A stretch of 64,000 nt of DNA from Bdellovibrio bacteriovorus HD100 (lineage in GTDB: Bacteria; Bdellovibrionota; Bdellovibrionia; Bdellovibrionales; Bdellovibrionaceae): contig NC_005363.1 in the NCBI RefSeq assembly GCF_000196175.1, positions 3,348,001 through 3,412,000 of the forward strand. The letters are read 5' to 3'. Positions 5,153 through 21,810 of the stretch are shown one piece after another. Position numbers and translations under genes: made by a program. Under the pieces are notes generated by a model. That model had not been told where the DNA came from. It was given only the letters and a program-made list of their open reading frames with translations, and made no database searches. Every line of letters begins with the position of its first letter. Positions within the stretch are counted from its first letter, which is position 1.

Positions 5153-5839
5153 ATGAAAATTTCGCTGGCTTTCTTTCTGGTCCTGTTTTCCATGACTGTG
5201 GCAGAGTCCGCCCCAGCAGTAAGCCATTATCAAATCAGCACGGAAGACTATCCCCCTTACAATCACTACGACAAAAACAAATCCATCGTCGGCTTGGCCA
5301 CCAACAAAGTCAGAAAGATCATGGAGACGTCCGGTTTCCAATACGAGATCAGATTGTATCCCTGGCTGCGGGCCTACAACCGGGCTTTGAGCGGTGCCCG
5401 CCACTGTGTTTACTCCACAGCGCGAACAGTGGACCGGGAGGCCTTGTTTCACTGGATCGGTCCTCTGGTCACCGTGGAATGGGCTCTGTTTGCTAAGAGA
5501 GGAACACCTGCGGCCTCAATTAACAAACTGGAAGAAGCCCGGCAATATGTGATTGGTGGTTTGGAAGGTGATGCCTCGTTAAGCGAGTTGAAACGTCAGG
5601 GATTCAAAACAGAGTCTGTCGTCACAAACTGGCTCAACAAAGACAAACTCGAGGGACAAAGAATCCAGCTGTGGATTGATGATCCGGTTTACATCGAGTT
5701 TGAAAAACAAAAGGGCACCGAGTTTTTTGACTACGTCAAAGTCGTTCACATCGCAAGTGTGGACCTTTATCTCGCGTGCAACATCAGCACACCTCTGAAC
5801 GAAGTCGAACTTCTGCATAAATCGGCCGGGGGCTTTTAA
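5153..5839 (+). CDS. Periplasmic amino-acid-type solute-binding protein, short C-terminus
   Basis: A 228-residue protein of the SBP_bac_3 type. A signal peptide (MKISLAFFLVLFSMTVAESA) is followed by the family opening YQISTEDYPPYNHYDKN, a ligand-loop region ACARTVDRE-like (YSTARTVDREALF) and the second-lobe segment WIDDPVYIEFEK. GGGAG six bases upstream supports the ATG. The family normally continues another 20-30 residues after the segment VDLYLACNISTPLNE; here it stops after HKSAGGF. Its stop shares bases with the stop of the convergent fibre gene, suggesting the 3' end was lost. No permease or ATPase genes are adjacent, so it may be an orphan sensor or binding protein. Confidence 0.65.
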   Translation: MKISLAFFLVLFSMTVAESAPAVSHYQISTEDYPPYNHYDKNKSIVGLATNKVRKIMETSGFQYEIRLYPWLRAYNRALSGARHCVYSTARTVDREALFHWIGPLVTVEWALFAKRGTPAASINKLEEARQYVIGGLEGDASLSELKRQGFKTESVVTNWLNKDKLEGQRIQLWIDDPVYIEFEKQKGTEFFDYVKVVHIASVDLYLACNISTPLNEVELLHKSAGGF

Positions 5840-7797
5840 TCCCAGGCCGTAAATCCTGCGGGCGGTCCATAAACCAGCTGACTGGCTCCCGTCAGCAACT
5901 GAATTTTTGTGACCGTATCGTTGGCAATACTGGCCGCCGGGAAGACATCTCCCGCCGGCAAAGATGAAAACTGCCCTTGATAAACGCCGTTCTTATAGTA
6001 CGACAACGTGCCGGCGGCAAAGTCGGCCGCGATCCCCATGACATCGCCCGCAGTCAGAGCAGGTTTGGAGCCGGTGTAAGTGGCGCCGTAAGTAAAACCG
6101 CCCTGAACCTGATACCCGCGCCCAGCGACCGAACTTCCGATATAGGCCCCCGCCAATGTCGCAGCACTGCTGGCCACCCCCACCATGGCCTCGGGGGTTC
6201 CACTTTTGACCTGAACCACCTTGCATTCAAAGTACCACTTGCCACTCGCCTTGCTGCTGTTGCCGCGAACCGAATTCCAAGAACCCCCTGTGCTGGTGAC
6301 ATCTCTAAAACTGTTGGAAAGTACCAGTGCAGAGGCCTTGTCCAGGGGATTCCAGCTCGTATAAAGCGGCGGCACAGTGACACTGTCAATCTGGGTCACC
6401 ACCCAGCCATAGGTGGGATTTTGATATGTAAGAGTCAAAGAGCGCCCTTGCTCTGACTGAATCCAGTCCTTCGCCGCCCCTCCGGAAAAGCGATTCCCGT
6501 TGGGATTGATGGTCAGGGCATTCAGGTTGAAACTCTGACTGTTGTCCACAATCCGCACAACATCATTGGCGCTGGGATTTGCCGGAAGTGTGATCGTAAA
6601 AGGTCCGCCACTGGTGTTGGCAAAAATATGATCACCACCGCTGGCGGTATAGTTGCTGGTTTTTTCAACCCAGGAAACAGTGTTCCCTGCTGGCGGAGCC
6701 TGACTGACCCACGCTGTGCCATTCGAAGTCAGAACTTGGCCACTGGCCCCGGGACTGACAACGGCACTCAGAGAGATGTTCACACACGAAAACTGGTCCG
6801 TCACCGAGCTGTACGAAAGCGTCTGAGCCGCAGTACAGGAGACTGCAGGGAACTGAGCCGCCGCTGTGGCGGTGCGAAGATCCGCCACATTAAGAAAGGA
6901 CGGAACATACTGAGTCCCGCCATCAAAGCGCAGAACCTGACCGGCGGAAGAGGGCGCTGTGGCGCTGACCGGAGTCGTTTGAATTTTGCTCACCAGCGGA
7001 TGAGGGTAGTTTCCACTCAAGTCCCCACCCGCCGCTCCAGCGGGCGCACGCGCATCACTGAAACGAAGATCATTCCCCTGCGCCACTGTTCCTGCAGACG
7101 AACCAAAGGCCACCGACACGGTTTTAATGGTCGTGCCCGAAACACTGATGCCTGTCCCGGCCTGTACATCTGAAATTCCGCCTGCCCCGGCGGCATCCAT
7201 CACACAGCTAAAGTTGCTGCCATCAAAGGTGATAACCTGCCCGGCCAGGCACCCCGCCGCGGGTACATTGTTTTTCTGAACAAAGTCATTGGGTCCCAAC
7301 GATCCCAATTTCGAGGCGGAATGGGCCGTCAAAGAAAAAGGAACGGACCGAATCACGTTCGAAGGACTGATCTGCCTCCAGGCCGTCCCATCATAGAACT
7401 GCACCTTTAGCACACGCACATCGCCGTCCAAAGCCGTGTAAGTCGCGCCCCCGGCACAGGAATGGATGACTGAATTCACAAATGCATCTGAAAGTTTGTA
7501 AAGGGGATCGGCTGGATACTGACGGCCGCCGAGCCCGATGGGAACATCAAAGACTCCCAGGGAGTTGGCCATGTTAATGCCTTCAACCAGCTCCCGATAG
7601 ATCACACAAGTGCCCGTGGGATTGGCGATCTCAAACAAAAACTTCACGTTGTTATGCTCTAAAGGCACGCCGTCAGAGGTCAGAATCCGCCCTTGATAGG
7701 TCAGACTCAAAGGACTGGCCACCGCCACTGGCAGAGCTCCGAAAAACAAGAAAACAAAAACGCCCAGAGTTCTTGAACGAAGTAGAAAGTTCTTCAT
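5836..7797 (-). CDS. MAT-like secreted trimeric fibre/adhesin with phage-tail-type modules and SPRY-like tip
   Basis: A 653-residue protein with a signal peptide (1-28, ending PVAVAS). Residues 30-165 open with LTYQGRI and resemble the shared N-terminal domain of Bdellovibrio MAT fibres. A repetitive stalk follows: GQV[IL] x x [DN]G turns at 186, 286 and 353, GTGISVSGTTI at 214, and the tail-fibre motif GGDLSGNYPHPLV at 257. Residues 376-472 match a module common in phage tail fibres (YTASGGDHIFANTSGGPF then TITLP). Residues 480-650 look like a SPRY/concanavalin-type tip (KWYFECKV, SYYKNGVYQG). The expected role is trimeric surface recognition of prey or other ligands. The stop overlaps that of the solute-binding gene. 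MAT assignment is inference from the domain plan. Confidence 0.75.
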   Translation of the reverse strand: MKNFLLRSRTLGVFVFLFFGALPVAVASPLSLTYQGRILTSDGVPLEHNNVKFLFEIANPTGTCVIYRELVEGINMANSLGVFDVPIGLGGRQYPADPLYKLSDAFVNSVIHSCAGGATYTALDGDVRVLKVQFYDGTAWRQISPSNVIRSVPFSLTAHSASKLGSLGPNDFVQKNNVPAAGCLAGQVITFDGSNFSCVMDAAGAGGISDVQAGTGISVSGTTIKTVSVAFGSSAGTVAQGNDLRFSDARAPAGAAGGDLSGNYPHPLVSKIQTTPVSATAPSSAGQVLRFDGGTQYVPSFLNVADLRTATAAAQFPAVSCTAAQTLSYSSVTDQFSCVNISLSAVVSPGASGQVLTSNGTAWVSQAPPAGNTVSWVEKTSNYTASGGDHIFANTSGGPFTITLPANPSANDVVRIVDNSQSFNLNALTINPNGNRFSGGAAKDWIQSEQGRSLTLTYQNPTYGWVVTQIDSVTVPPLYTSWNPLDKASALVLSNSFRDVTSTGGSWNSVRGNSSKASGKWYFECKVVQVKSGTPEAMVGVASSAATLAGAYIGSSVAGRGYQVQGGFTYGATYTGSKPALTAGDVMGIAADFAAGTLSYYKNGVYQGQFSSLPAGDVFPAASIANDTVTKIQLLTGASQLVYGPPAGFTAWD

Positions 7798-7854
7798 GTT
7801 TTACAATTCGGACTGCCGAGGGCGCCTCTTGAACCCCCGCCAGGGCTATATTCC

Positions 7855-7903
7855 ATCTGGAAAAAGAAAATGTTGCGAGTGTTGCACAAGCAACGCTCGC
7901 AAC
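7855..7903 (-). terminator. Terminator-like hairpin in the leader of the fibre gene
   Basis: A 14-bp stem with one G-T wobble (7872-7885 with 7890-7903, loop ACAA) is followed on the minus strand by ATTTTCTTTTT. It lies about 60-105 bases upstream of the fibre ATG on the same strand, with no minus-strand gene above it. It could attenuate the fibre mRNA or end a short upstream transcript. Confidence 0.65.
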
Positions 7904-8027
7904 CGAAAGATGTCACCCCCGTTGTGGCCTAAACAGGCGCCACACCCCAGGAGCCAATGTATTTGCTTTCTATTCTGGCATATTCCGCGCAATCCCTTGT
8001 TTCGACACAAAAAACAAAGGAGCTTTT

Positions 8028-8369
8028 ATGCGCAAGTTTATCGTTCTAGCGGCCCTGTCCCTGATGTTCTCTGCTACGGCACAGGCCAAACAAAAGGCCG
8101 TTATTATCGTCAGCGCCTACAACGAAATCACCATCATCGACAAGGCGACAAAGATTCCCGCCAATTTTCTTTTCACCGATAAAATCTGCTACACGGGAAC
8201 TCCGGAAGAAGCAGAACAGATCATCCAGAAAACAATCAAGAACAGAACAGGCTTTACACTGGTTGATTTCAGAGCCTGGGACAATTTGGGCAAAATTATA
8301 TTGTTTGCGCAGATCGAAACTGACAGACAGGCGACAGTCGAAATCGTGCTAAAACCTTGCAGCAAATAA
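8028..8369 (+). CDS. Small exported protein of unknown function
   Basis: A 113-residue protein preceded by AAAGGAG at a good distance from the ATG. The signal peptide MRKFIVLAALSLMFSATAQA is cleaved before KQKAVII. The mature 93 residues are mixed alpha/beta with two cysteines (ICYTGT and the C-terminal KPCSK) that may pair in the periplasm. I recognise no family. It is monocistronic: divergent from the fibre gene and closed by a strong terminator. Confidence 0.6.
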   Translation: MRKFIVLAALSLMFSATAQAKQKAVIIVSAYNEITIIDKATKIPANFLFTDKICYTGTPEEAEQIIQKTIKNRTGFTLVDFRAWDNLGKIILFAQIETDRQATVEIVLKPCSK

Positions 8370-20354: not shown

Positions 20355-20505
20355 GCCCCCGACTGTATCCTCCCCCGTTCGGGCCGTCAATTTGCGGCAC
20401 CCCTGACAAAGACCTGAACAGCTTCATGGTCTCCAAACCATTTAAAGCCATCTCAAGGTGGTACAAATCATGAAATACAGCCAGTGTCTCAAAGGAGAGG
20501 TAGTG

Positions 20506-21810
20506 ATGATTCCAGCTTTGGCCAAAAAAATTCTGCACGTTACTGTTGGTACGCTTCTAGTCAGTTCCGCCGCTTCTGCGAAAGTTTACTTGAATTCCAT
20601 GTGCCATATGGCCGCCAATTCAAAAACCCAGCAGATCCAAGGCGATGACAACAAAGACGACAAGTTCCCTTTGGCTTCAATCTCCAAGGTTGTAACCACC
20701 TTATGGGCTGTAGACCGTCTGGGTCCTGACTATCGCTTCAAAACCAAACTGCATGTCACACCAACTGCCAACGGTTCTTACGATATCCATATCGAAGGCA
20801 GCCGAGATCCACTGTTTGGGCGTAACATGTCCTATTTCCTGATTTCTGAACTAAACCGCATGAAAATCACCAAGATCGAAAAGCTGACTTTCGATGAAAA
20901 CTTCCTGTTGGCGTGGTTGGCGGAAGAAAAGCCGATGATCGGCGGAACGACACCTAAATATGACACCGTTGAACAGCAGGCCTCTATCGTGCGTGCGACT
21001 TTGACGTCCTCTTTTGCGACGGCTATCAGTCCAGGCTATTACACTATTCTGAAAACCAAAGCGGCTCGCATTGGCGTGCAAATGTCCAATCGTCCGAAGA
21101 TTGACGTGCGCACGATCAGTTTTGTGAAAAAAGCTGAGTTCCAGAAAAACGAAAAGTCCACAACGATGGTTTTGATGTCTGCGCCACTGAAAACAATCCT
21201 GAAACGCATGAACAACCAGTCCAACAACTATATCGCCGACAATCTGTACTGGAATCTGGGTGGCACTGAGGCTTTCAATGCTTACATCGCCGGTAAAATG
21301 CAGGCCGACACATCAGATATCGAATTCCACAACGGCTCTGGCAACAACGAAGGTTCTGTCGCCAAACCGGTTTACAATGAAGCCACTTGTGAAATGATGA
21401 TCAAGGTTCTTTACTCTTTGGATAAATCCCTGTCTGCAAAAGGCTACGACCTTTCTGACGTGATGGCGGTTGCTGCGAAAGACAAAGCCTCCACTGTGGG
21501 CAGCTATGGCGGCGTGATGGCTGGTTCAACAACGGCAAAAACCGGAAGTGTCAACAAAGCCAAAACTCTGATGGGATCTGTATCCACTAAGAACGGCGAA
21601 ATCTACTTCGCAGTTCTGATGCACACGGATTATGACAAGTCCCGCTCTGACTGGGGTGTGGCTTCTCAACAGATCAAAAACAAGGTCAGCCAGTTGATCA
21701 ATCAAAACGGCGGACCAAAAGCAATCAAGTACACCGAACAATTGCCATTGCCGTTTGATAAGTATTCTTACCTGACAAAAGCGAACACTATCACGACAGA
21801 GAAGAAATAG
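20506..21810 (+). CDS. dacB: PBP4-type D-Ala-D-Ala carboxypeptidase/endopeptidase
   Basis: A 434-residue class C penicillin-binding protein. AAAGGAGAGG five bases upstream selects the ATG at 20506 over an in-frame ATG at 20470. A signal peptide ends SSAASA. The catalytic motifs are S58-x-x-K61 in PLASISKVV, SNN in NQSNNYIAD, and KTG in TAKTGSVN. The enzyme trims or cleaves peptide crosslinks in periplasmic peptidoglycan. In Bdellovibrio, PBP4 homologues are known to act on the prey wall to round the prey. Whether this copy does so or serves the cell's own wall cannot be read from sequence. Confidence 0.9.
   Translation: MIPALAKKILHVTVGTLLVSSAASAKVYLNSMCHMAANSKTQQIQGDDNKDDKFPLASISKVVTTLWAVDRLGPDYRFKTKLHVTPTANGSYDIHIEGSRDPLFGRNMSYFLISELNRMKITKIEKLTFDENFLLAWLAEEKPMIGGTTPKYDTVEQQASIVRATLTSSFATAISPGYYTILKTKAARIGVQMSNRPKIDVRTISFVKKAEFQKNEKSTTMVLMSAPLKTILKRMNNQSNNYIADNLYWNLGGTEAFNAYIAGKMQADTSDIEFHNGSGNNEGSVAKPVYNEATCEMMIKVLYSLDKSLSAKGYDLSDVMAVAAKDKASTVGSYGGVMAGSTTAKTGSVNKAKTLMGSVSTKNGEIYFAVLMHTDYDKSRSDWGVASQQIKNKVSQLINQNGGPKAIKYTEQLPLPFDKYSYLTKANTITTEKK

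Follow-up and report, generated by a model that had tools for sequence, protein, structure and literature searches.

A MAT-family protein and probable surface fibre of Bdellovibrio bacteriovorus HD100 with a collar and a SPRY tip related to phage tail proteins

The reading frame at 5836-7797 of the window (the whole 64,000-nt stretch of the HD100 chromosome analysed here, 3348001-3412000 of the contig) raises the question of what a predatory bacterium does with a protein that starts as one of its own surface fibres and ends in modules of phage-tail type, and how such a protein came to lie at this locus. A sequence-only reading had described the product as a MAT-like fibre with phage-tail modules and a SPRY-like tip. 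The frame was found where that reading had placed it, and the description was confirmed overall. Our analysis makes it probable that the gene encodes a short MAT-family fibre of the cell surface, with a neck and a tip made of phage-tail modules.

The features of the gene and its surroundings are collected in Table 1. The stop codon of the gene overlaps that of the neighbouring solute-binding protein (SBP) gene in the sequence TTAA, while on its other side lie a 113-aa gene (8028-8369) and then a hem cluster. Further along the window, at 20458-21810, a peptidase S13 (PBP4-type) gene is probably Bd3459. Gene counting from this presumed landmark would put the MAT gene at about Bd3445. No paper naming Bd3443-Bd3448, the estimated range of tags, was found in the literature searched.

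Table 1. Positions in the window of the MAT-family gene, its parts and its flanks
Feature	Position	Strand	Basis and details
Whole MAT-family gene, NS74 type	5836..7797	-	653 aa; ATG at 7797, stop at 5836; ORF, NF053851 and Pfam scan
Signal peptide, residues 1-28	7714..7797	-	Read from sequence; helix 2-20 in model
MAT N-terminal anchor domain, residues 29-165	7303..7713	-	NF053851; identity to the MATs of the genome; pLDDT
Stalk, residues 166-372	6682..7302	-	Motif counts; strand pairs in low-confidence model; DNA repeat D2
Collar module, residues 373-470, T4 gp10 / CBA120 TSP4 XD1-type	6388..6681	-	TSP4 7rfv match; profile search
SPRY tip, residues 477-653	5839..6369	-	PF00622; structure model; Ash2L SPRY match
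Inserted segment (approximate) relative to the two closest species	5824..7892	.	Limits of flank homology
Convergent neighbour, family 3 solute-binding protein	5153..5839	+	PF00497

In order to place the protein in a family, its N-terminus was examined directly. Judged from sequence, residues 1-28 read as a Sec signal peptide (MKNFLLRSRTLGVFVFLFFGALPVAVA-SP), in line with the signal peptide noted earlier. The NCBIfam model NF053851 (Bdello_MAT_N) scores 219 bits over residues 16-176, where its cut-off is 60. This result confirms the LTYQGRI domain noted earlier and membership of the MAT family, and it clearly contradicts one of the two outcomes that had been named beforehand as speaking against the assignment, a domain without similarity to other MAT N-domains. 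Alignment with 13 other MATs of the genome gave identities of 51-65% and many invariant residues. Of the limits first given to the domain, residues 30-165, the similarity stands, while the confident beta domain is limited to about residues 32-149, with pLDDT of about 77-93 in the full-length monomer model. That model is poor as a whole (pLDDT 49, pTM 0.30) and unusable beyond the N-domain; a fold search with it gave no match at E < 0.001, as expected from its low confidence. No PDB relative of the N-domain has been reported (PMC10769870). A weak match to the start of the domain, 37% over 59 residues, was seen outside Bdellovibrionota in Larkinella humicola (L211).

HD100 has been reported to possess 21 MATs, 13 with an S74 peptidase-chaperone (S74 MATs) and eight NS74 MATs (PMC10769870). 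We found exactly 21 Bdello_MAT_N domains above the cut-off on the contig of 3,782,950 bp and 13 S74 domains in the genome, each of which could be assigned to one MAT by position, leaving eight MATs without S74. The gene is an NS74 MAT, since a Pfam scan detected no S74 in it and it lies outside the 13 S74 loci. The lengths of Bd1334, Bd2133, Bd2439, Bd2734, Bd2740 and Bd2872 fit six of the eight non-S74 frames. Matched by count and lengths only, the gene is almost certainly one of the eight published NS74 MATs and, given the same total and the same 13/8 split, very probably stands in Supplementary Table 1 of that paper. The main text neither names it nor contains the term SPRY, and none of the six MAT structures described there is this protein (PMC10769870). 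The longest of the eight, a 1,959-aa NS74 MAT at about 682400-688300 of the contig (L073), is likewise not named in that main text.

With the six named NS74 MATs the protein shares a signal peptide, the N-domain, stalk motifs and a non-S74 tip of known adhesive fold, and its size is near that of Bd2740 (627 aa) and Bd2872 (626 aa). Unlike them, it has a SPRY domain as its tip rather than a TNF-like domain, a C-type lectin or a novel sandwich, and it possesses an XD1 collar, for which the genome yielded no second copy. Among the genomes compared, its insertion is confined to the HD100 lineage.

The stalk is short and bears repeats. GQV-turns occur three times, at residues 186, 286 and 353, compared with 0.07 expected from composition shuffles, which upholds the repeated turns read earlier; two of them are also seen as DNA repeat D2, and strand pairs at 187-200, 287-301 and 325-340 lie at or near the turns in the low-confidence full-length model. 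The motif GGDLSGNYPHP occurs once, where shuffles give 0.05 for GDLSG-type motifs, and residues 257-272 of the stalk read GGDLSGNYPHPLVSKI. The motif had been taken as a sign of a phage tail fibre. Its presence holds, but it is not specific evidence for such an origin since it is common in MAT stalks: GQV and GDLSG motifs are regular in most complete MATs of this and other Bdellovibrio genomes, and each checked MAT read past its N-domain contains 1-4 GDLSG-type copies.

The relationship to phages lies instead in the two modules beyond the stalk. Using phmmer, we found that residues 381-469 match the tailspike TSP4 of phage CBA120 (7rfv) with an E value of 5e-6, which identifies the YTASGGDHIFANTS module of the sequence-only reading. 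Antibody and nanobody chains that matched alongside TSP4 (E 0.003-0.3) are most likely chance hits. A collar profile of 34 sequences matched TSP4 residues 95-174 at 4.4e-16, the proximal subunit of a long tail fibre at 2e-9 and T4 gp10 at 8e-9, and the Pfam domain T4_gp9_10_N was found in 12 of the 34 members. The collar is thus homologous to solved XD1 domains, to that of CBA120 TSP4 by phmmer and profile and to that of T4 gp10 by profile, and the profile relates it also to the T4-type long-tail-fibre proximal subunit. In TSP4 the XD1 domain is trimeric, seems to serve as a spacer and has a fold in common with T4 gp9; glycan-binding domains of XD1 fold are known in two bacterial metalloproteases (PMC8825819). 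In phages XD1 is a spacer of the baseplate or tail fibre; in the MAT, a bacterial fibre, the collar comes directly beneath the tip. At least 552 stretches in viral contigs encode the collar (IMG/VR, alignment query); unlike this query, a single-protein pattern scan of viral contigs found no relatives. In named phages the collar is often inside proteins annotated as tail-fibre or structural.

The C-terminus, first described as lectin-like, proved to be a SPRY domain. Residues 520-629 match PF00622 with about 41-44 bits (cut-off 26.3), and the domain is the only SPRY in the genome. A model of the tip built with 45 viral homologues reached a pLDDT of 92.1 and a pTM of 0.89. Its best solved match is the SPRY domain of Ash2L (Z 27.9, rmsd 1.4 Å over 170 residues), followed by those of RanBP9/10, DDX1, TRIM and SPSB proteins. 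According to this predicted structure the tip is a true SPRY fold, and most SPRY core residues are kept. The likeness to Ash2L and RanBP9/10 is one of fold (Z about 26-28); these are eukaryotic intracellular peptide binders only about 22-24% identical to the tip. In a viral library the fold search returned B30.2/SPRY domains and phage tail-fibre proteins, and at sequence level identities of 29-37% link the tip with proteins of Xanthomonas phage DoCa1, Acidovorax phage ACP17, Burkholderia phages FLC6/FLC8 and Methylophilales phage MEP301. In IMG/VR, at least 468 viral stretches code for relatives of the tip; a single-protein pattern scan of genome contigs for the tip found no relatives.

The structural SPRY proteins of these phages (DoCa1_20, ACP17, MEP301 gp16 and FLC6 gp1) have the signature SSGKWYFE, DVxGxAxD, YKNGVxQG and PPxGxxAW in common with the tip but do not carry a MAT N-domain. 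In DoCa1, whose tail module closes with a gene for a 983-residue protein, the SPRY domain stands at the C-terminal end of that protein, as in the MAT. In most of the best viral relatives it is internal to larger structural proteins, many of them of a LamG-SPRY type of roughly 800 aa, and it lies within 25 residues of the C-terminus in 16 of the 74 best. SPRY domains of jumbo phages have been described as tail-fibre-associated and of lectin fold (PMC7824862). Five large SPRY proteins, apparently not MATs, were seen in a genome of the same family and another genus (G015; L054-L058); they resemble the phage LamG-SPRY structural proteins, and at least one has a TAT-like signal and LamG-like repeats. 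Other Bdellovibrio MATs (L202, L203, L206 and L207) end in further tips, with the endings ECSN and QYWR.

The phage relationship claimed for both modules is therefore borne out by their viral relatives and by the collar profile. We also asked how often collar and tip occur together. The joined cassette is present in two of 291 Bdellovibrionota genomes, HD100 and G050, a second Bdellovibrio species; because it is this rare, it is not a core predation factor. These are also the only two of 61 genomes of the family with the tip at high identity (57% in G050). The G050 protein (L067) is a MAT of 1,471 aa that ends in the cassette, and residues 164-653 of the HD100 protein align with its residues 938-1471 at 39.6% identity (E 2e-106). 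It also carries the MAT N-domain, and its collar and SPRY tip are 55% and 57% identical to those of HD100, but it has about 770 more stalk residues and lies at another locus among other neighbours. The region concerned (G050:C4:414437-420159) contains two MAT genes head to head, one of them SPRY-tipped. None of the viral relatives examined has collar and SPRY in one protein, and the two may therefore have come together within Bdellovibrio or in a phage not yet sampled; PHROG 8859 does span part of both (residues 374-599, E 0.001). Mixed fragments of collar and SPRY were misaligned by MAFFT, and consequently the domains were handled separately. The tip cassette probably comes ultimately from phage tail proteins and was probably moved between MAT stalks by recombination.

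The locus was also compared across the genus, with one genome per species. The MAT gene is missing from all 20 syntenic genomes, in which the surrounding genes are kept. In the two species nearest to HD100, with hemB 97-98% identical, the SBP gene directly adjoins the 113-aa gene, forming a near-intact empty site, and homology to HD100 ends at 5823 and restarts at 7893 (G006) or 7911 (G034). The segment between, about 2.07 kb, holds the MAT gene alone, and the last residues of the SBP differ from those of the sister species. The simplest reading of these alignments is that a single gene, together with roughly 100 bases of DNA upstream of it, was inserted in the HD100 lineage, which would have changed the end of the SBP. 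At the ends of the insertion we found no mobile element and no clear target or attachment repeat, only weak repeats of 14-33 nt with 73-93% identity. That the gene arose by copying a different MAT of this genome was rejected, as DNA matches were limited to pieces of 74-337 bp at 65-77% identity in a comparison that did not include five of the MATs. MAT number varies from 3 to 30 per genome across the genus, which indicates that gain and loss are frequent. The flanking SBP and 113-aa genes, too, are restricted at this position to HD100 and the two species nearest to it.

Location on the predator surface and variable tips have been demonstrated for several MATs (PMC10769870). By analogy with the family, the protein would be exported and held on the surface by its N-domain, with three chains winding into one fibre and the XD1 collar acting as a trimeric spacer; the trimeric state of XD1 in phage TSP4 lends such a trimer indirect support. 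The outward loops of the SPRY domain could then bind an epitope of some prey, be it protein, peptide or glycan, and HD100 would have one more specificity among its adhesive fibres. Most likely the protein is a trimeric fibre that serves in prey recognition and owes its tip to phages, and we infer that the tip binds a prey ligand.

A different partner can be imagined for the tip. It might bind something on the side of the predator or of the fibre, such as another MAT, an outer-membrane protein or a deposited vesicle, and act in handling inside the bdelloplast rather than in recognition. The most similar SPRY domains of known structure bind peptides (Ash2L-RbBP5, RanBP9-DDX4, SPSB2), in its crystal the Bd2133 tip had bound a peptide from an adjacent copy of the fibre, and some MATs move to a vesicle in prey (PMC10769870). 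However, the phage relatives have their SPRY domain on tail or virion proteins, and the tip is strain-restricted, as prey specificity would predict; we regard a predator-side partner as unlikely.

It is less likely still that the gene is a recently acquired MAT that is silent or decaying. It is missing from relatives, and a scan of 7700-8100 found no sigma-70-like promoter, which is weak evidence, but the frame is open over 653 codons, most SPRY core residues are retained and the protein ends in the family-typical PPAGFTAW. That a phage or prophage tail-fibre gene became stranded here without a function for the predator is very improbable. The phage-type collar and SPRY modules and the lineage-specific insertion could be read that way, yet the insert of about 2.07 kb holds one gene, and the signal peptide, the full MAT N-domain and the chromosomal flanks (SBP, 113-aa gene and hem cluster, with no phage genes) led us to reject a prophage remnant. 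We retain prey recognition as the preferred function of the fibre.

In experiments on this function, glycan arrays used by themselves might overlook the ligand of the tip, since its nearest SPRY relatives of solved structure have peptides or proteins as partners. The gene is a reasonable candidate for a knock-out since Bd2740 and Bd2872, short MATs of similar size, have reported effects on predation (PMC10769870). Redundancy is expected, and a phenotype may be hard to see because published deletions of single MATs had no or small effects (PMC10769870).

The MAT family itself was already described (PMC10769870). New here are a SPRY tip and an XD1-type collar that are each single-copy in the genome and abundant in viral contigs, the recurrence of the cassette on one other MAT in 291 Bdellovibrionota genomes, and 20 syntenic genomes without the gene. 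According to an earlier proposal, predator fibres become diverse through the swapping of tips, drawn mainly from structures of the same strain (PMC10769870). The present gene is a case of tip swapping backed by comparative genomics, through the relatives lacking it, a cassette at an unrelated locus and phage relatives for both modules. We suggest, tentatively, that strains gain prey specificities by swapping phage-tail collar and tip cassettes onto MAT N-domains, and that this gene is a recent event of this kind whose SPRY domain might recognise a protein epitope rather than a sugar and open prey that the nearest relatives handle less well. HD100 and those relatives offer a natural presence/absence comparison for the effect of one tip on prey range, and the SPRY domain, familiar above all from immune and signalling proteins of animals, joins the folds used by a bacterial predator.
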